DNA of 64,000 nt from Verrucomicrobia bacterium S94 (GTDB lineage Bacteria; Verrucomicrobiota; Kiritimatiellia; Kiritimatiellales; Pontiellaceae), in NCBI GenBank assembly GCA_004299845.1, contig CP036201.1, forward strand, positions 3,100,001 to 3,164,000, given 5' to 3'. Position numbers and translations under genes: made by a program. Positions 5,240 to 59,359 of the stretch are shown here, one piece after another (within the stretch, counting starts at the first letter, position 1; each line of letters opens with the position of its first letter). The notes beneath the pieces were generated by a model. The model did not search any database, was not told the origin of the DNA, and was given only the letters and a program-made list of their open reading frames with translations.

Positions 5240-6079
5240 TCATTCAGAAACAACGTAAAGCCCGGCCACCTTGTCAATCTCCGGAAGAACCGTTCGGGAG
5301 AGCACTTTTTTAGCTTTATTAACGACCATAATATCCGGCCAGGCGGAATTCGTGTGATAAAATGTAAAAGCAATCCTTCCGTCTTCCAAAGGCCGGATTT
5401 CGCAGACATGACCACCTTCCCCCTCGGGAAGATTTCCGTCTTCAACCGGATTGAACGTCCAGATCAGTTGGCCCTCCGGATTAAATTCATCCAGCCGGCG
5501 AAAGGAACCGATCAGTGTGTTCCCGTTCGACAGACGTACCGCACCTACCGGCTGTCTCAAGCTGGTAAATTCATTCATCACTTCTCCGTCGCGGGAAACT
5601 TCCTGAACTTTACCGTCGCGGGTTAAGGGGGCCAGATAGCTCCCATAGGCGGTTTTTCTGCAGAAACGGAACTGCCCGTGATGAGCATGGTTATCAGGAG
5701 CCAGCGGAATCCGCTCCAGCGTTCGGCCAAACGAATCAATCTCCAGCAGAACGCCCGGCCCCTCATTACCCACCAGATAACGTCCTTCCCCCAGAATCCG
5801 GGCCACAGGATTCTGCATTCCTTCCGGAACAGTGTAGCGCCAAAGCAACTTTCCTTTCCCGGAAATCATCCGGGCACCGGAAATTTCACTGCAGAAAATA
5901 CTGCCGCCCTTATCGGCATCCAGCGCCTGGGGATGCCGGATATCGGTATAATTCCAGACCACATTCCCGGCCGGATCCACCTTATAAATACCGTCCGGTT
6001 TATGGCTGCTGATCACGAATAACGGTCCAGCAGAACAACCGATCGAACAGCACAGCAGAACAACAGCATATCGTATCAT
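5240..6079 (-). CDS. Secreted beta-propeller protein (PQQ/NHL-like repeats)
   Basis: A 279-residue protein with an N-terminal signal peptide (MIRYAVVLLCCSIGCSAGP) followed by short repeats of the form G-x-x-x-W-x-Y or G-x-L-L-W-R-Y (AGNVVWNYTDI, KGKLLWRYTVP, EGQLIWTFNP) typical of beta-propellers of the PQQ-like or arylsulfotransferase type. The start overlaps the stop of the upstream heme-protein gene by 4 bp, so they are probably co-translated. No catalytic residues can be identified; it may be a binding or scaffold partner of the heme protein in the periplasm. A lipoprotein signal is possible, but the lipobox is poor. Confidence 0.7.
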   Translation of the reverse strand: MIRYAVVLLCCSIGCSAGPLFVISSHKPDGIYKVDPAGNVVWNYTDIRHPQALDADKGGSIFCSEISGARMISGKGKLLWRYTVPEGMQNPVARILGEGRYLVGNEGPGVLLEIDSFGRTLERIPLAPDNHAHHGQFRFCRKTAYGSYLAPLTRDGKVQEVSRDGEVMNEFTSLRQPVGAVRLSNGNTLIGSFRRLDEFNPEGQLIWTFNPVEDGNLPEGEGGHVCEIRPLEDGRIAFTFYHTNSAWPDIMVVNKAKKVLSRTVLPEIDKVAGLYVVSE

Positions 6080-9000
6080 CGTGCCGGCCCATCCTCATTA
6101 CAGCCGCCGGGGCCTTCCGGAAGATTGACCGCGCTGCAGCCCGGCAGCGGATTCATAAAAGCCTCTCTGCCCAGCATATCGATGCGCGGATCTTTATAGA
6201 GCAGTTCTTTTCCGCGCTCGATCGCTTTAAGCATTGTAACATAATCCGGATCGGTCTTATCGGCAAAAACCGGAGAGCCATCCGGGCGGGCACACAGCTC
6301 CGCCCCTCCGGCAACGGCAGCAAGCGGCGCCTGCAGCAGCAGACTATGCGATGGATTCGTCATATTGATACGGAATTCCGGACCGATCTTCGCCGCTAAC
6401 GACCACTTCCGGCCCAGACCATGGGAAGAGAGCGACTTATCGCCCCAGATATCACTGTATACCTTCATTCGGACCGGAATCAGCCACGACATATTCAGCG
6501 CATCACGTTCGTGACAATCCGCACAGCGTTTTTCAAAGACGGCCGGAAGAATCTCTTTCGCCCACGGATCAGCTCCCGGTTTATTTTCAAACCAGGTATC
6601 ACGCATACCAAGACCCCGCGGTTTCATGTCCACCAGTGCCGCATCGTAGGTGGCATAATACGGTACATTCGCATCAATCCAGCAGTAGACACGAAACCGC
6701 TCATCCCAGCTGATTTCGGACCCGCAATGCGACACATCCATAAATTCGTCAATCCGGCTGACTATTGCACCGACCGTATTCGGTGTGCCTTCATCGTGGT
6801 CCAGAGAGAAAACAGAAAGATGATCCACAATATCGCGGTCAATCAGCTGATCGTATGACTGGTTGAAAAAGCGCGTCTTATCATCCGTCAAATTCACTCC
6901 GCCTTTCGCCAGCGGACCGCTGTGACATTCAACACAGTGCTTATCCCACACCGGCTGTACAACTGAAACATAATCGATCAGACCCTGCGTTCCCCAGCCC
7001 TGCTTTTTCGGCTCCACCGGACCGCGACGCAGAGCCAGAGGCGTTTTTCCGGACATTGGCGGCGCGGAACCGTAGCCGTATTCGCGTTGCTCATGACAGC
7101 CGATACAGCTGAGATTCTCACCGGGCATCACGTGCAGATCGGCCCCCATACGCATAAGAGTCTTCCCCTCTTCATTCAGCACATTCAGCGAAATACTGCG
7201 CAGTGCCGGAACGCTGAAAAAAGCCGACCCATCTTCCTCAATCGGCACCAGCCCGTTCAGGCGCCGGACATGAACGGTTCCTCGTCCGATCAGAGGCGAA
7301 TGTCCCCAGGCCTCACCACCGCGAAGAATGCGGCTTTTCTGTACCTGTTCCATAACAGCAATATATTTTGCCTCACCGCGTTTCACATGTTTTGAAATGC
7401 CCTTGTAAACATCCTGCACCATCATGGTGGCGGTCATATCCGCCCCGGCATCGGTCCGGTTCATGATTTCCGGATCCTGAAATGTCCAATCGAATGGCGG
7501 AATCTTATCGGCAATCACCGGCGGCACTTCGCGTGGCCGCACCGGTATGGCGTTCCAGACGGACAGGCCGTCCGGTGCTTCATAGATAACACGCTCATTG
7601 CCGTAGGCATCCAGATAAAGCAGTTTGAGTGGTGTCATCGTATATTCCGGCCTTTTCCACTCCGGAATCTTTTCGGGATTATCCCATTCCGGGCGATGCT
7701 TTCTGCCGCCGTAGGAAACCAGAAACTGCTTTTCATTCAGCGGCCACGGTGTGCGGTATCCATCCGGATATTTAAGGTCCCCGTAAATCGGCACCTCGCG
7801 CGTGACCCACCGATAACCGGTGCCGCGCGGGGTTTCCGGACCCCGGCCATTCCAGATCAGACCGATCATGCCGGCATGGTGATTGTGGTGCGGCCCGAAT
7901 ACCGCCAGAATCTCCGGGCGGTCGGGAATCGTATGCGCCCACCAGAATCCACCGGGATCCTCAATCGTATTGCCGAAAACCAGCTGGAAATTGGTACCGT
8001 CCGGATTCACAGTCCACAGAGCGTGACGTGCAAATACATTTTTCTCCACTCCGTAATCCCAGCGCGTAAACAGAATACGCCCGTCATTGGTGACCCGAGG
8101 AGAATGATCGGAATCGATATTGGCCGAAATCAGCCGCAGATCTGAACCGTCGCGTTCCATCGTAAAGAGCAGACCGGCATACTGGCTCTGGCATTCCACA
8201 AAGGTACTGCGGCGCGTTGAGATAAAAACCAGGCGGCCGTTCGGCAGCTCAACCGGACTGATATCCGCCGTATCCCCATCCGTAATCTGTTTGAATCCGG
8301 TACCGTCCACCCCGATTTCATAAATATTCCAGGCATAGTCCCGATTTACACGTTTGCCGGAAAAGAAAATCGTCTTTCCGTCAAACGATAGACTCATATC
8401 ATAGATCCGCATATCCGGCTCGGAAAAAATAATCTCCGGTTCACCATCCGGTTCCGCAGGATCCAGCCGACAGATCGCCGAGGGCAATGATCCGCGTGTA
8501 CGGTATGGCGCAATTGCATTCTGATTATGCAGCGGCTTTGTGATAAAAATGAGCGGCGGCAGACGACGGATTTCCGCATCGAGAAAGTCCTCCAGCTTCT
8601 TCCGCATGGCCGAAGCATCTTTGGACCGCTTCAACTCTTTTTCCAACGTCCGGAGCTTCCGATCGTATGCCGCTGCCCCGGGCGTTGCGGGAAATGACGC
8701 CAACGATTTTTCAATGTCATACGATGCCGGTGAACACATTGGAATGGGTTCCGCCCGGAATTTAAAACGTTTTACATACTGCTCATCCGACAACCGGTCC
8801 ACAGCATGAATATCCACATACCAGGGATCCTGAACCGCATGCATACCTTCAACAGCAAATGCAAAACCATGCTCCGCCCAACGGCTCACATTTTTTATAA
8901 GCAGACGATTCGTACCCTTTTTCAGCGGAATATTCCGCTTTATCGGTCCCTGATACCGGCTCCAGCCGGTCAGCTTATTCTGCCGGAAGACTTCCTTCCC

Positions 9001-50335: not shown

Positions 50336-51436
50336 ATGGGATTTGAGAAAGGATCTGTGAGTTTCCGCATGTATTTCGCATCGCGCGATCTGACGGTGGA
50401 GGATATCGACAAATTTGCCGCTGCGGCACTGCCGCCGCTCAGTACACTGGCGGAAGAGGAAGTACACGGCTGGGTCGGAGGCCGTCATCTACTGGACCGT
50501 AACATCACGGAAGAGAATGCATTTCTGGGCGGATATCTGCGGCTCTCATTAACGCAGGCCCAGAAAAAAGTCCCGACCTCTCTCCTCCAGGCGGAATGCG
50601 CTCTTGAAGAGATGGCAGTCATGGAGGCCGAAGATAAAAATTATCTTAACCAGACCCAGCGGTCGGAAATCAAAAAACAGATTAAAGAGCGCCTGCTCCC
50701 GGATATGCCGGTGCAGCTGAAAGGGATTGATTTCGTATTCGATGAGCGTTCCCATATGATTTACTCCACCGCAATTTCGGAAAAGCAGCTGGATGCCTTT
50801 GTTCTGAGTCTGATGCAGACGACGGGCTGCGGAGCAACTCCGGCCGATCCGGAGACCATTGCCGAGCGTGTGGCCCATGTGGATGTGCAGGGCTGGGCTC
50901 CGTCCAGCTTTTCGGATGAACTCGAAGACGGTATGGTCGACGGTACAGCCGGGCGGGAATTTCTGATGTGGCTGTGGTTCTGCTCCGAAAAACGCCAGGG
51001 CATTACTCAGATTCCGGATGTCGGCGAAATCGCCTATATGATCGAAGGACCGCTGACCTTTGTGATGGAAGGCAAAGGCGCGCACGAAATCACGCTGCGT
51101 AAAGGTGAACCAATGCTTTCCGCGGAAGCGCGTACAGCGCTGCTCAGCGGAAAAAAATTAAAGAAAGCCAAAATGCAGTTTGTACGTGGTGAAGAGGTCT
51201 GGGCTTTTACCTTTGACGCAGATGACTTTGTTTTCCGCAGTCTTAAACTACCGGAAACCGAAACCTTTGACCGCGTTGGAAAATTCCAGGAACGCATGGT
51301 TTTCCTGGAAACCTTCCGCCAGAGTTTCTTCCACCTCTACAGCGAATTTGCTAAAGAACGCAACGATTCCAAGGTGTGGAAAGAGACCAAGGAAGAAATG
51401 CGCAAGTGGGTGGCCGACCGCCCGTCTACAGCTTAA
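50336..51436 (+). CDS. rdgC: RdgC-like recombination-associated protein
   Basis: A 366-residue protein resembling RdgC, a ring-forming DNA-binding protein that limits RecA. Supporting segments: HGWVGGRHLLDRNI, YLRLSLTQAQKKVP, FDERSHMIYSTAISEKQLD, and TAGREFLMWLWFCSEKR, which aligns with the conserved EFLTWLWF of RdgC. The length is a little longer than E. coli RdgC (303). It is followed 13 bp later by a small gene of unknown function, probably in the same transcript. Confidence 0.75.
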   Translation: MGFEKGSVSFRMYFASRDLTVEDIDKFAAAALPPLSTLAEEEVHGWVGGRHLLDRNITEENAFLGGYLRLSLTQAQKKVPTSLLQAECALEEMAVMEAEDKNYLNQTQRSEIKKQIKERLLPDMPVQLKGIDFVFDERSHMIYSTAISEKQLDAFVLSLMQTTGCGATPADPETIAERVAHVDVQGWAPSSFSDELEDGMVDGTAGREFLMWLWFCSEKRQGITQIPDVGEIAYMIEGPLTFVMEGKGAHEITLRKGEPMLSAEARTALLSGKKLKKAKMQFVRGEEVWAFTFDADDFVFRSLKLPETETFDRVGKFQERMVFLETFRQSFFHLYSEFAKERNDSKVWKETKEEMRKWVADRPSTA

Positions 51437-51449
51437 CGGAGACACTGAT

Positions 51450-51923
51450 ATGCTGTTTAAAAAAGTAAAAAAGGGCACTGTCGATGCTGCCCTTCTGGGC
51501 GAAAACTTCGGCTCCATCCGGACTGCGCTCACTGAGATTCTGGAGTTTAAAGAAAAACGGTATAAACCGACTCCGGTTTACGAAGTCCGCAAAAAAGTGG
51601 ATATTGAATCCGCATGGCCTGCCTGCAGAGACCGACTCTATTCCATGTTTGAAGAGCTCACTTCCATTGCCAAACAGCTCGACATGGAAACCACAACCAT
51701 CAATCCCGATCTCAGTTTTTCAGAAGCAATCGAAACCTTTGTTGTTCAGCTGAACAGCATTGTATACGGCCTGGCCGATGTAGTCGGTACGGGTAAGCAT
51801 ACGCTGGAAGAACTCATTGAAGTCAATGACCGGATTCTTAACATCCAGCTCAGTGCGAATGAGCTTGAGCGGTTTGTGCTGTCGGAATTCAAATTTCCAG
51901 GCATGCCCGGTGCGGACGATTAA
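51450..51923 (+). CDS. Hypothetical protein, partner gene of rdgC
   Basis: A 157-residue, mostly helical, soluble protein from ATG 51450 (MLFKKVKKGTVDAALLGENF), with GGAG upstream. No signal peptide, membrane helix or catalytic motif is visible; charged segments TEILEFKEKRYKPTPVYEV and VTGKHTLEELIEV-type helices suggest a protein-binding or helical-bundle role. I do not recognise the family. Its closeness to rdgC hints at a shared DNA-related role. The frame is also open upstream to 51180, inside rdgC, but that part is out-of-frame overlap. Confidence 0.7.
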   Translation: MLFKKVKKGTVDAALLGENFGSIRTALTEILEFKEKRYKPTPVYEVRKKVDIESAWPACRDRLYSMFEELTSIAKQLDMETTTINPDLSFSEAIETFVVQLNSIVYGLADVVGTGKHTLEELIEVNDRILNIQLSANELERFVLSEFKFPGMPGADD

Positions 51924-53542
51924 CGCAAAAGCTCCTCTCGGAGCAACCGGATAAATTTCTCCGGCGGCTTATGTTCCGCCCCCATCATACAGGCCTGAAT
52001 CCAGTTTCGCTCGAGAAGATAGTCACTGCGGTAACTGATTAATACGCCATGCTCTTTCAATTTATCCCCAATACGCTCTGAGGAGTGAATTTCCGGCAAA
52101 GCGATGGTAACCACAGCCGGCATTGCACAGGAATCGGGGGCCAGAATCGGCGCATCGATTTCGGCCAGTTTTCTCCGTATCCGGATTGACCACTCGCGCA
52201 CATCCGCAAACCGTTTATTCCAGTCGTGCGATTCCAGTGCGGCAAGCAGGGCATAAACCAGATTAGACTGTATCGTAAACGGAATTCCCGCCTGTTTCTG
52301 ATAAATTCCCAGATCAAGCGCACACGGCAAATCATCCGGAGCAGGCTCCAGATCATGATTGTGAAACACCATACAGAGTCCGGAAATTGAAGCCAGTCCC
52401 TTTCCGCTGGTTCCAGATGCCAGATAAACCCCCGAAAGATCCACCGGGACCGTGCCGAGGGAACTGATACAGTCCAGGCAGAGTTTCGCATTATAGGCCT
52501 CACAAACATCCTGAAACATTTCAATGTCGTGCAGCACCCCGGTCGACGTTTCGCAATGCGTCGCCCAGACCCAGCCAATTTCAGGATGCTGTTTAAACTG
52601 CTGTTCAACCATTTCTCTGGAGAAGGATTCCCCCTCCGGAATTTCCAATGTATGGAAAAACAGTTTTGCTCCATTGGCATTCCGGGTGAGACGGCGGCCG
52701 AATTCGCCGCTCACCAGAATCAGTCCGGTGGAACAGAGCAGCGACAACTGCCCCGCAACCGCATCATTCGCCAACGTCCCCGGCCCCATAAGCACCTGCA
52801 CCTGATCCGCCTTCGTCAAGTCGCACAACAGCCGCCGCAGTTTCTGGAAATCTTTTATAAAATCATCACCCCGATGCGAACACGGTTTTTCTTTATAAAC
52901 TTCCTGCACCTGTTTGCCGAAATCAACCGGACCGGGGAGAAAGTTGAACAGTATGGTATCATCATTAGCCAGTTCCGGCTCTTTTTTGGCAAAGGAACGC
53001 GACCGCGTTTTCAAATCCTTATACGCTTCAAGCGTCAGATACATCGGCTGGTACTGAGCATCCTCGGTTCCAACCAGTGGACCGAACGGGGTAAACCCCA
53101 GAAATTTATACAGTTTAATCTGGCGGACGGTCCCCGAAATAACGGCGAGATCGTGTCCTCGATCAATCGCATGCTGCACCAGCGTGGCAATCAATCCCTG
53201 CGAAATCCGGGTATAGCGGAACTCTTCCTCAACAGCCAGCAGACGGATTTCGCAAAGCGAACGCCCCGGCGGAAGATAGGCATCGAGATCGCTGAGCTTT
53301 TCATCCAGGGAAAACGGCCGCTTATCGCGAAAAGCGATCATGCCCGCAAGTATACGCCGCTCTTCATGAACACAGATAATATAGGTGTTTTCATCATGAA
53401 ACTTATCCTTCAGTTTGCGCTCAGGATTGGCTTCATGCTGAGGAATCTCCTCCACAAAAGTCTTGTAATTGAGTGCGTTTACCGCCTCCATTTCCCAATC
53501 TTCCCGGGCAATTTTATAGATAAATCCGTCGAGCAATCCCAT
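51920..53542 (-). CDS. GNAT/FeeM-like acyltransferase fused to class V aminotransferase
   Basis: A 540-residue two-domain enzyme. Residues about 10-180 form a GNAT or autoinducer-synthase-like acyltransferase (ALNYKTFVEEIPQHE, ILAGMIAFRDKRPFSLDEK, EIRLLAVEEEFRYTRISQGL, LYKFLGFTPFG). Residues about 200-540 form a PLP-dependent class V aminotransferase like 2-aminoethylphosphonate transaminases (FLPGPVDFG, VLMGPGTLANDAV, WATHCETSTGVLHDIE, CLDCISSLGTVPVD, with the PLP Lys in ASGTSGKGLASISG near residue 381). An enzyme that makes an amine and N-acylates it is an attractive guess. The start overlaps the PlsY-like stop by one base, so the two are coupled. Confidence 0.82.
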   Translation of the reverse strand: MGLLDGFIYKIAREDWEMEAVNALNYKTFVEEIPQHEANPERKLKDKFHDENTYIICVHEERRILAGMIAFRDKRPFSLDEKLSDLDAYLPPGRSLCEIRLLAVEEEFRYTRISQGLIATLVQHAIDRGHDLAVISGTVRQIKLYKFLGFTPFGPLVGTEDAQYQPMYLTLEAYKDLKTRSRSFAKKEPELANDDTILFNFLPGPVDFGKQVQEVYKEKPCSHRGDDFIKDFQKLRRLLCDLTKADQVQVLMGPGTLANDAVAGQLSLLCSTGLILVSGEFGRRLTRNANGAKLFFHTLEIPEGESFSREMVEQQFKQHPEIGWVWATHCETSTGVLHDIEMFQDVCEAYNAKLCLDCISSLGTVPVDLSGVYLASGTSGKGLASISGLCMVFHNHDLEPAPDDLPCALDLGIYQKQAGIPFTIQSNLVYALLAALESHDWNKRFADVREWSIRIRRKLAEIDAPILAPDSCAMPAVVTIALPEIHSSERIGDKLKEHGVLISYRSDYLLERNWIQACMMGAEHKPPEKFIRLLREELLR

Positions 53543-54132
53543 TATGCCTCCTTTTGCGGCAACCCAGCCGAAAATGCTTTGCGAATCCGCTCACGATGAG
53601 CAAACAGAATGATTACCGAAACCGCAGTCAATGCAGCAACCGCATGGTCCGGCATGTCGAGTGCATAGGCAACCAGCGGAAGGGTCAGAAAAGCCGTTAG
53701 ACCACTCAGAATAAAACCCCGACGGAAAATCAGCAGAACAAGCGTAAGACCGAACAGCAGCATTGCAAGGTTGCTGTCGAATGCAAGATAAGCTCCGATT
53801 GCAGGAGCAATGCCACGCCCTCCGCGAAACTGAAGGAAAAGCGGCCAGACATGCCCGGCAACAACCGCGACCAGAACCAGCGAAACCACCGGCGCAGCAA
53901 GCCCGAACCAATGCGCCAGCGCAACAGCGGCCAGACCTTTCAGTGCATCCCCCAGCAACGTAACCGCGAACCCGGATGCGCCCAGTATGCGCCCGGCATT
54001 ACGCGCACCGACTCCCCCGCTGCCGCATTCACGGATATCTCTTTTCGTCTTCAAACGAACCAGATAATAACCCGTGCAGATTCCGCCGAGCAGATAGGCA
54101 ATCAGAATGCAGATGATGTCCCTGTCTATCAT
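53542..54132 (-). CDS. PlsY-like glycerol-3-phosphate acyltransferase (divergent)
   Basis: A 196-residue membrane protein with about six helices and the three PlsY motifs in changed form: GSGGVGARNAGRILG at residues 37-51 (canonical GSGNIGATN), FRGGRGIAPAIG at 102-113 after GHVWPLF (canonical FKGGKGVAT), and AHRERIRK near 178. PlsY transfers an acyl group from acyl-phosphate to glycerol 3-phosphate in the inner membrane. The changes suggest a specialised acceptor or donor. Coupled to the GNAT-aminotransferase gene, so it may make a non-standard lipid with it. Divergent from the SDR gene. Confidence 0.82.
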   Translation of the reverse strand: MIDRDIICILIAYLLGGICTGYYLVRLKTKRDIRECGSGGVGARNAGRILGASGFAVTLLGDALKGLAAVALAHWFGLAAPVVSLVLVAVVAGHVWPLFLQFRGGRGIAPAIGAYLAFDSNLAMLLFGLTLVLLIFRRGFILSGLTAFLTLPLVAYALDMPDHAVAALTAVSVIILFAHRERIRKAFSAGLPQKEA

Positions 54133-56705: not shown

Positions 56706-57896
56706 TCAGCCCTGTGCCAGCGATGCGGGATTAGAAAAATAACCGAGTGCCGTATGAGCCTGCGGTACACGGACTGTTACAATACTGCCCTCTCCGACAC
56801 GGCTCTCGAAAACCAGCGTTCCGCGGTGCTCTTCAATCACTTTTTTAGTGATGAAAAGGCCTAGTCCAGCCCCTTTTTCAATAGTGGCGGTATTATCAAA
56901 CGGTTCAAAGATCCAGCGCAGTGAGGAGGTGTCCACACCGCACCCGTTATCTTTTATTTTCAGTTCGATGTCTGAGTTGGTCAAAGAGAACTCCACCGCA
57001 ATACTCGGAGCAGATTCGTTGTCGACTGCGGTAACCGCATTATCGATCAGATTCTGAAGCGCCCGCTTCACCTGCAGGCGCTCACCAAGCATCTCATACT
57101 GGTCTTCGGCACCATCTACCTGCACTGAAAAAGAGATTTCAGAATGGGCTGCCGCATCGCGGAAACAGTCATTCACCAGTTTCGGCAGGTTCACCCGTTG
57201 TAACTGGGAAAAGTCGAAGCGCCCCAGAGCACGCCATGATTCAACCAACTCCGCACACCGCTCTACATTGCGTTCAATCTGATCAAGATATTCGCTCATC
57301 TCATCAGAAGTGGAATCCCGTTTTTCTTTCAATTCATAATTAAGCAGGTCGAGATAACCCCGAATAATGGTCAACGGATTCCGGAGATCGCGAACCAGCT
57401 CCGAAGATGCTGCACCGAGTGAAGTCAGCTTGTTGGTCTTCCCCACTTCCCGGCTGAGCGACTGCGTCATTTTAGTGAGCTCTTCCTGTGCCTGTTTTTT
57501 GCGGGAATTCAGCTTGGAACGCTCGACATATTTTTTGACCACCGCCTGAATTTCGTCCGTATCAAACGGTTTTTGAAGATAGTCATTGGCACCGTAACGG
57601 ATCGCCTGCTGAGCGGTTTCAAGGTCGCCATAGCCGGTGAGCATCACAATAGAAACATTCGGATTGATCTCGCGGATCTCCCGCAGTCCTTCAATACCGC
57701 TTTTTTCCGGCATACGGATATCCATGATGACCAGATCCGGGTTATGTTCCCGAAGGGCATTTATTCCCGCATCAACCCGCTCCGCGAGCACCATGTCGTA
57801 ATCATACTTCAACACCATGCGCAGACTTTCACGCGGTCCGCGCTCATCATCGATGACCAGCACTTTACCTTTTTTGTCTTTGCATTCCGCGATCAT
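56706..57896 (-). CDS. Receiver domain fused to histidine-kinase module lacking the phospho-accepting His
   Basis: A 396-residue signalling protein: receiver domain at residues about 10-125 (KVLVIDDERG, phosphoacceptor Asp59 in LVIMDIRMP, Thr87 in MLTGYG, Lys109 in YLQKPFD), a short linker, a dimerisation domain and an ATPase domain (LQNLIDNAVTAV, IKDNGCGVD, GAGLGLFITKKVIEEH). At the H-box the sequence reads SSELVRDLRNPLTIIRG: Arg169 (codon CGC, one base from CAC) replaces the usual His. Autophosphorylation is therefore unlikely unless another residue serves. Flanked by 9 bp from the FadL and flavoprotein genes. Confidence 0.88.
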   Translation of the reverse strand: MIAECKDKKGKVLVIDDERGPRESLRMVLKYDYDMVLAERVDAGINALREHNPDLVIMDIRMPEKSGIEGLREIREINPNVSIVMLTGYGDLETAQQAIRYGANDYLQKPFDTDEIQAVVKKYVERSKLNSRKKQAQEELTKMTQSLSREVGKTNKLTSLGAASSELVRDLRNPLTIIRGYLDLLNYELKEKRDSTSDEMSEYLDQIERNVERCAELVESWRALGRFDFSQLQRVNLPKLVNDCFRDAAAHSEISFSVQVDGAEDQYEMLGERLQVKRALQNLIDNAVTAVDNESAPSIAVEFSLTNSDIELKIKDNGCGVDTSSLRWIFEPFDNTATIEKGAGLGLFITKKVIEEHRGTLVFESRVGEGSIVTVRVPQAHTALGYFSNPASLAQG

Positions 57897-57905
57897 AATG
57901 ACTCC

Positions 57906-59116
57906 CTAAAACGCTATAGAGTATGTCAGACCAACAAGGTTGGAATCAATCTCATAAATCCCCGCACCGCTTGTGTTCGAAACCGGCGCGCTGCGATCCT
58001 CGTAGATACTGAACGTGTAGGCTAGGTCAATCATGTGAGCTCCGCGGGTATACCCCAGCCCGAAACTGATCGCATGGCGGTCGGCATCCGGCAGAAGCGG
58101 CGTAATGGTGTCCTCCGGGATCGGGCTCGGAATATAGGCATATCCCGCGCGAACAACCAGAGAATCGAGGGCCTGCCAACTGCCGCCGACACCAAAAGTG
58201 AATGTGTCATCCCAGTTGTTTTCAAGATCCGCAACCGGCACACCGGCCACCAGTTTCTGAGAATCATTCAAAGACCATTGCAGCCATTCCACTAAAGCTT
58301 CTATCTGAACATTCTCATTTATGGAAAACCCATACCCAACACCAATGATATTCGGCAATTTGACTTCAGTTTCGAAAGGCCCCGAATTCACCCCGCTGAC
58401 TTTAAAATCGCCGTCAAAATCTACCTGCATTTGGCTCCGGTATGTCAGCGCCAACCGCTGTCCTTCCACGGGGTTCCAGGTCAAACCGAGATTAGCCCCG
58501 ACACCCCAACCATCGCCTTCGCCTTCCACATCCGCATAGGTTCCTCCCCTGTACCCAGCAAAGATTTCAGTGTCAGCTCAGAATAAGCGACATTCAGACC
58601 GGCTCCAAGCGACAGCGTATCGGTTAATTTTGTCGCAACCGTGGGGTTAAAATTGATCATCATCATCTGGGCCTCATAAGGCACAAAATCACCGGGATTA
58701 ACAATAAACGGGGCAAAATCGTCTTTTTCCCAGGAAAGCCCCTGCCCATAAGGTGTATTAATGCTCAGCCCCGCTGTCCAACGTTCACCCAGCGGTAAAG
58801 CGTAATAAATGTTGGGCAGAAAATTCCAGTCGCCATCCGACTCAAAAGCATTGGGAGCCAATGGGTTCTGATATGAGTTTTCCGTGCGGGCCATGGTCAG
58901 CGACAGAACAACAGACTGATTGGTCTGAAAGGCTAAATTCGCCGGATTGTAGAAAATCGCCGAGGCATCATCCACCCACACCGAATGCACGCCGGATTTG
59001 GCAATCCCCTCCGCGGTCGGCGGCGGATTACGATAGCCATCGGCCATCGCAGACCGGGCAAGAGCAAAAACTGTTGCACATAACCCCGCCGCAAAATATC
59101 TGTGATTCCTGATCAT
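57906..59116 (-). pseudogene. FadL/OmpP1-type outer-membrane transport protein, split by a one-base deletion
   Basis: The N-terminal part (to about 58550) has a signal peptide (FAAGLCATVFALARSAMA) and FadL features (VWVDDASAIFYNPANLAFQ, LSINTPYGQGLSWEK, INFNPTVATKLTDTLSLG). The frame then breaks in a G tract (C run 58546-58549) after KSLLGTG; the next frame continues YADVEGEGDGWGVGANLGL, RLALTYRSQMQVDFDGDF down to VGLTYSIAF at 57906. Adding one G yields exactly 403 codons plus stop, the family length. FadL proteins carry hydrophobic molecules across the outer membrane. GAGGGG precedes ATG 59116. First gene of a leftward run of three. Confidence 0.88.
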
Positions 59117-59359
59117 AAATACCCCTCAATATCGACAATTAATAAACTGTCTTTTTTTAGCATAAGATATGCCATGGGTCACTAAAAAATTCACCTACAG
59201 GTTGTGTAAAAATTCTTGATATATACAATATATTGATATTTAGTGTACAAAATTGTGCACAACATATGTGTGCATATTTATCACCTATGATTGCGGCCGA
59301 TACCTGATTATTCCACTACATAAGGATACGCCGAAATTCAGACAAAAGGAAGTAGACCC
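59117..59359. promoter_or_regulatory. AT-rich divergent promoter region with palindromes
   Basis: The 243-bp gap between the divergent FadL and ketosynthase genes is very AT-rich and should hold promoters for both. It contains the perfect palindrome TTGTGCACAA (59253-59262), followed one base later by ATATG-TGTG-CATAT (59264-59277), plus a TATA-rich stretch at 59215-59240. These could be operators for the signalling proteins on either side. No gene is visible here. Confidence 0.5.

Follow-up and report, generated by a model that had tools for sequence, protein, structure and literature searches.

A divergent PlsY paired with a fused N-acyltransferase–aminotransferase in Kiritimatiellota, Verrucomicrobiota and Bacillaceae, and its possible role in making a serinol-based lipid

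We analysed a 64,000-nucleotide stretch of the Verrucomicrobia bacterium S94 genome (hereafter the window) and found two coupled genes on its minus strand. The upstream gene (53542..54132) encodes a 196 aa PlsY-like acyl-phosphate acyltransferase, referred to here as the module copy (PF02660, 127.2 bits; gathering cut-off 24.1), and the downstream gene (51920..53542) encodes a 540 aa fusion of a FeeM-like N-acyltransferase and a class V aminotransferase, as judged from the open reading frame (ORF), Pfam and NCBIfam matches, and an AlphaFold model (mean pLDDT 90.6 for the whole protein). Within the fusion, the N-acyltransferase domain occupies residues 1–185 (52988..53542, minus strand) and the aminotransferase domain residues 197–540 (51923..52954, minus strand). 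The junction of the two genes reads GGAGGCATAATGG on the minus strand; the stop codon of the plsY-like gene (TAA) and the start codon of the fusion (ATG) have one A in common (TAATG), and a GGAGG ribosome-binding site lies 5′ of the fusion start. This tight junction is not a matter of chance, because the intergenic gap is mostly −17 to +15 bases in 69 linked loci.

Downstream, on the plus strand (50336–51923), lie a gene for an RdgC-like protein (weak PF04381 match) and then one for a small protein of no known family; both are convergent with the fusion gene, with a 4-base overlap at the fusion stop, and the RdgC-like gene is kept at the same place in 15 Kiritimatiellales loci. On the minus strand, 56706–57896 encodes a single protein with a receiver domain ahead of a histidine kinase (REC-HisKA-HATPase), upstream of an FAD-linked oxidase gene, and 57906–59125 holds a FadL/OmpP1-like gene that a frameshift at about 58540 divides. 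An intact 418 aa relative aligns to consecutive stretches of the latter, one half in each of two frames, and the gene is intact in nine related loci (398–455 aa); the split gene could be a pseudogene or a sequencing error. We did not count this wider Pontiellaceae neighbourhood (FAD oxidase, response regulator-kinase, RdgC-like gene) towards the module; only close relatives have it in common, and we took it for ordinary synteny.

The window PlsY is a paralogue, since the genome carries a second, canonical plsY that scores far higher as a PlsY (182.8 vs. 127.1 bits for the window copy), which also rules out the window gene as the only copy. The module PlsY shares 30% identity with the canonical PlsY of the same genome and falls short of the equivalog model for glycerol-3-phosphate (G3P) 1-O-acyltransferase (TIGR00023; 119.3 bits, cut-off 137.2). 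Structures and mutants of aaPlsY have established that Ser35, Arg45, Lys104 and Asn180 hold the G3P phosphate, that Ser142 and His177 contact the G3P 2-OH, and that Thr41 (at the acyl-phosphate carbonyl) and His92 contact the acyl-phosphate (PMC5700162). Every canonical copy that we compared (39/39) has S-N-T-R-H-K-S-H-N at sites 35, 37, 41, 45, 92, 104, 142, 177 and 180. The window protein retains Ser38, Arg48 and His179 (aaPlsY Ser35, Arg45 and His177), and it carries Arg44 (54001–54003) at the Thr41 position, Arg106 at Lys104, Gly144 (53701–53703) at Ser142, and Arg at the Asn180 position. Across the module copies (n = 63), Ser35 (62/63), Arg45 (63/63) and His177 (63/63) are kept, Ser142 is never found (0/63; Gly in 56/63), Arg41 is present in 51/63 with Thr41 kept in 11/63, and the phosphate-clamp Asn180 varies; Arg41 occurs in only 3.0% of 7,288 PlsY homologues surveyed (PMC5700162). 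Because Ser35 and Arg45 are kept and Ser142 is lost, and assuming roles as in aaPlsY, the acceptor of the module PlsY is likely a compound that is still phosphorylated but altered at C2, an inference from residue changes without biochemistry. The preliminary description of this locus, made from sequence alone, had reported both ORFs, their TAATG overlap, and PlsY motifs (GARNAG and FRGGRG) altered at substrate-contact residues; the ORF check and the comparison with canonical copies bore all of this out (Arg lies at the aaPlsY Thr41 and Lys104 positions, respectively), and of the two findings that it named as refuting its interpretation, one, a PlsY-like gene that is the sole plsY of its genome, was not made. 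What it missed was the most consistent change, the loss of Ser142 in all copies, usually to Gly.

The first ~175 residues of the fusion match the Pfam FeeM family (PF21926; 42.8 bits, cut-off 27), which Pfam ranked first, and a Bacillus homologue matches it as well (39.9 bits). A separate model of this domain (pLDDT 91.8) aligned with FeeM (2g0b) at Z 18.0 over 168 residues and with N-acyl homoserine lactone (AHL) synthases at Z 17–18 over 170–177 residues; a plain GNAT (5jph) scored Z 18.7 over 142 residues, so the fold alone leaves the matter undecided. A profile search of the PDB with this domain only was weak (best E 0.001; FeeM at E 0.8). Taking the Pfam match with the near-full-length fold coverage, we consider the domain a likely member of the FeeM/AHL-synthase branch, N-acyl transfer itself being inferred. 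One stand-alone FeeM-like domain that is 50% identical to the fusion N-domain (locus L056, 2973–3734, minus strand) adjoins a gene for a protein with PglD/NeuD-type hexapeptide, CBS and nucleotidyltransferase domains.

The C-terminal domain matches Aminotran_5 (Pfam). Its best named match is TIGR03301, the 2-aminoethylphosphonate (AEP) transaminase family PhnW-AepZ, at 122.6 bits against a cut-off of 360.8, and TIGR02326 gives 81 bits (cut-off 400.8). Its fold resembles those of class V enzymes (Z 40–44), including the AEP transaminase 7e7g (Z 42.1, 341 residues), which is also the top PDB sequence match. Because the PLP residues Asp357 and Lys381 (the Schiff-base Lys) are invariant in a 39-sequence alignment, this domain should be a working PLP enzyme, which we regard as likely on sequence grounds and without biochemistry. 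Class V enzymes have an Arg that binds the substrate carboxylate, with a role as in AGT and PhnW. At this position all 39 fusion proteins carry a Gln (Gln516; 51995–51997 in the window), AEP transaminases (FRxG motif) carry Arg, as do the ordinary class V enzymes in the genomes that were searched (FRIGNI, FRVANI, FRIGHM), and split homologues of other Verrucomicrobiota carry mostly Glu (LFEIAAM). The natural reading of Gln516, and in our judgement a likely one, is a keto substrate without a carboxylate; this too is inferred from sequence, and it comes with the caveat that class V enzymes usually use amino-acid donors that need this very Arg for their carboxylate, so that donor binding by a Gln516 enzyme is unexplained. 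The Ser142 loss and the invariant Gln516 both restrict the range of likely substrates, to C3 compounds that are phosphorylated and have no carboxylate. The preliminary description had placed the N-terminal domain in the autoinducer-synthase/FeeM branch, which is supported by Pfam and by full-length fold coverage but only in part, as an ordinary GNAT scores equally high; the comparison of predicted structures with FeeM and AEP transaminase that it called for is the one given above, and it overlooked the invariant Gln516.

These residues bear on a rival reading in which the N-domain acylates an amino acid, as FeeM does, and the PlsY O-acylates the product or an unrelated acceptor, yielding an aminolipid akin to ornithine or glutamine lipids, for which PlsY would take the role of the PlsC-type enzyme. 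FeeM/OlsB-type enzymes do use amino acids, and aminolipid synthesis does proceed by N-acylation followed by O-acylation (PMC11631085). Against this, the carboxylate-binding Arg is missing from the fused aminotransferase in 39/39 proteins, and the PlsY keeps the clamp residues Ser35 and Arg45, which better fit a phosphorylated, non-carboxylated acceptor; we consider this reading unlikely.

Homologues of the fusion were sought in several genome sets. The full-length fusion is present in 10 of 195 genomes of the window's phylum, with ~44% to 89% identity to the window protein, and a scan of 84,980 species genomes added 15 further Kiritimatiellales/Pontiellaceae records together with Bacillus sp. 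DNRA2 and Bacillus marasmi, both at 45% identity. In the family of these two species (Bacillaceae), 82/193 genomes have the fusion, and a Bacillota-wide sample (398 genomes) contained it at full length in only two genomes besides the query's own; a search of viral contigs gave no match. At 64 distinct loci in three groups of bacteria (Kiritimatiellota, Verrucomicrobiota and many Bacillaceae), the fusion is immediately preceded by a plsY-like gene on the same strand, usually with an overlap or a gap of ≤15 bases, and beyond the pair the Bacillus loci contain ordinary housekeeping genes. On a plasmid of Cytobacillus spongiae, the pair is carried together with a lipoteichoic acid (LTA) synthase family gene; the RefSeq names of the three are glycerol-3-phosphate acyltransferase, aminotransferase class V-fold PLP-dependent enzyme, and LTA synthase family protein, and since the fusion is named there only for its aminotransferase, the module is not recognised by name. 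The pair thus recurs across phyla, as the search proposed in the preliminary description was meant to reveal, and it appears likely to be a self-contained, mobile module. Other Verrucomicrobiota of the window's phylum have split N-acyltransferase and aminotransferase genes, adjacent or overlapping (five loci), and these Verrucomicrobiota lack a second PlsY.

Immediately after the fusion, 15 Bacillaceae loci have an LTA-synthase gene, often with an overlap between the two, and the C. spongiae plasmid has the same arrangement (locus L186, LTA-synthase-family gene at 5587–7440). Two of these LTA-synthase-family genes, when tested, scored 627–647 bits against the lipoteichoic acid synthase model (cut-off 970); the fusion-adjacent homologue is full-length and keeps recognisable motifs of solved LtaS enzymes. 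This neighbour points to membrane glycerolipids. Kiritimatiellota are Gram-negative in organisation, and lipoteichoic acid therefore cannot be the general purpose of the module.

With this distribution in hand, a second rival can be weighed, namely that the fusion makes N-acyl 2-aminoethylphosphonate, a phosphonolipid. In its favour, the closest named relatives of the aminotransferase domain are AEP transaminases (TIGR03301; 7e7g), and four module-bearing Bacillaceae have a real PEP mutase. But the domain lies far under the family cut-offs for AEP transaminases, the carboxylate Arg of those enzymes is replaced by Gln, and the G3P-type acyltransferase partner is left unexplained. In the window's phylum, none of the 10 module genomes has a PEP mutase over cut-off (the window genome has not even a weaker match), and the same holds for 10 of the 14 module-bearing Bacillaceae. 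Since the window genome, like most of the others, has no PEP mutase, phosphonolipid synthesis is very unlikely, and we rejected it as a general reading.

Possession of the fusion goes with possession of an additional PlsY. In the phylum sample, exactly two PlsY were found in 9/10 fusion genomes vs. 3/185 genomes without the fusion (p = 2 × 10⁻¹², Fisher's test); the tenth fusion genome has a single PlsY match, whose score resembles those of module copies, and some PlsY matches in the three fusion-free genomes are fragments at contig ends. Bacillaceae with the fusion have on average 3.0 PlsY copies vs. 2.2 in those without. Mirror-tree comparison of the PlsY-like protein and the fusion gave r = 0.85 overall and r = 0.82 within Bacillaceae (0/2000 permutations each), and all nine of the nine examined Bacillaceae genomes in which the fusion is not linked to a plsY-like gene have an unlinked PlsY with Arg41 and Gly142. 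The gene pair, its domain assignment, its co-occurrence and co-evolution, and the conserved residue changes are shown by these data. Conversely, among 24 non-fusion genomes picked for having at least two PlsY copies, four Bacillaceae keep an intact Arg41/Gly142 PlsY and a fifth has a truncated one, and we therefore rejected a strict two-way association. Two of the four intact lone copies lie next to a ComM-like gene, the one that also borders the module in related species; from this neighbour we infer, as one possible reading, that lone copies are remnants after loss of the fusion, and an independent role is also open, so that the special PlsY can be retained, and might even function, where the product of the fusion is missing. 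In sum, the two genes likely depend on each other, the converse not being strict.

These exceptions are relevant to a third rival, which we consider possible: the product could be a free N-acyl amine such as N-acyl serinol (a signal or surfactant), as with the Gemella synthase, with the PlsY paralogue only supplying or diverting lysophosphatidic acid. This is supported by the Gemella gene that makes N-palmitoyl serinol (review PMC11271093), by the split pairs without a second PlsY, and by the few species that have a special PlsY and no fusion. On the other hand, without a common intermediate it is hard to account for the near-universal pairing, for the co-evolution, and for the fact that the paired PlsY has specifically lost its contact with the 2-OH.

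Our preferred reading is a three-activity lipid module running from dihydroxyacetone phosphate (DHAP) to an N,O-diacyl serinol phosphate. First, the aminotransferase domain would convert a phosphorylated C3 ketone, most likely DHAP, to serinol phosphate, a reaction for which the aminotransferase domain of RtxA provides precedent (PMC3222319). Second, the FeeM-like domain would N-acylate serinol phosphate, probably with a fatty acyl group from acyl-ACP. Third, the special PlsY, still gripping the phosphate and having space where the 2-OH was, would transfer a second acyl group from acyl-phosphate to the remaining CH2OH. The predicted product, 2-N-acyl-1-O-acyl-serinol 3-phosphate, is an amide analogue of phosphatidic acid that could feed into normal headgroup pathways, and the same product would arise in the alternative order, in which the PlsY makes acyl-DHAP first and the fusion then aminates and N-acylates it. 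While this is the best explanation that we can offer, we hold it to be as likely wrong as right, given that substrate, product and step order are all inferred; weighing against it are the lone special PlsY, the split pairs without a second PlsY, the Thr41 group (11/63), the varying Asn180, the unexplained donor binding of a Gln516 enzyme, the ordinary GNAT that matches the N-domain fold as well as FeeM does, and the absence of biochemistry. The aminolipid or N-acyl amine product suggested in the preliminary description likewise stays an inference, even though the testable parts of that description were supported.

A bolder form of this reading, which we lean against while not dismissing it, is that the product belongs to a novel bacterial phospholipid class built on serinol in place of glycerol, with an amide at position 2 and an ester at position 1. 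On this view, a two-gene module would make it from DHAP; the module would have passed between Kiritimatiellota, Verrucomicrobiota and Bacillaceae, in part horizontally and also by plasmid, and would be tied in many Bacillaceae to an extra lipoteichoic-acid synthase. N-acyl serinol synthesis is itself known, from the Gemella N-acyl synthase (cited in PMC11271093), and reviewed aminolipid pathways employ a PlsC-type second enzyme, in a review that mentions neither serinol nor aminotransferases (PMC11631085). No paper naming the PlsY/fusion pair was found in the literature searched, and there is a real chance of its product forming a new class of lipid. PlsY is usually treated as a single-function, nearly invariant starter of phospholipid synthesis; the module PlsY forms another, conserved type whose acceptor pocket has been remodelled, and its partner is an enzyme inferred to make and acylate an amine. 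If the proposal is true, bacteria possess a lipid akin to phosphoglycerides that is esterase-resistant at position 2, and such an amide lipid could be missed or misassigned by current lipidomics.

Compared with known systems, the module PlsY has the fold family of aaPlsY (5xj5), its acyl-phosphate site (His92 and the phosphate-hole loop), and Ser35 and Arg45, but the window protein differs in being a second genome copy with Thr41→Arg, Ser142→Gly, Lys104→Arg and Asn180→Arg, and in scoring below the cut-offs of PlsY equivalogs. The fusion resembles the AEP transaminases PhnW/AepZ in fold (Z about 42) and in its PLP Asp and Lys, and departs from them in sharing only ~20% identity, in lying far under the equivalog cut-off, in its invariant Gln for Arg, and in the lack of a PEP mutase in the window genome. 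Its N-domain aligns over nearly its whole length with the FeeM N-acyl amino acid synthase and with AHL synthases; unlike FeeM, it is joined to an aminotransferase, and its acceptor is probably not an amino acid. The proposed N-acylation of serinol is shared with the Gemella N-acyl serinol synthase (Cohen et al. 2017; PMC11271093), which reportedly also has an aminotransferase domain and is not known to have a PlsY partner; no Gemella sequence was identified in the Bacillota-wide sample of 398 genomes. The proposed conversion of DHAP to serinol phosphate is shared with the N-terminal domain of RtxA (rhizobitoxine), which is joined to a sulfhydrylase-like domain, whereas the present aminotransferase is joined to an N-acyltransferase. 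Finally, the proposed pathway is like OlsB/OlsA aminolipid synthesis in combining N-acylation by a GNAT-fold enzyme with O-acylation, and unlike it in that the O-acyltransferase partner is a PlsY (PF02660), which uses acyl-phosphate, and not an enzyme of the PlsC type, and in that the amine would be made by the same protein that acylates it.
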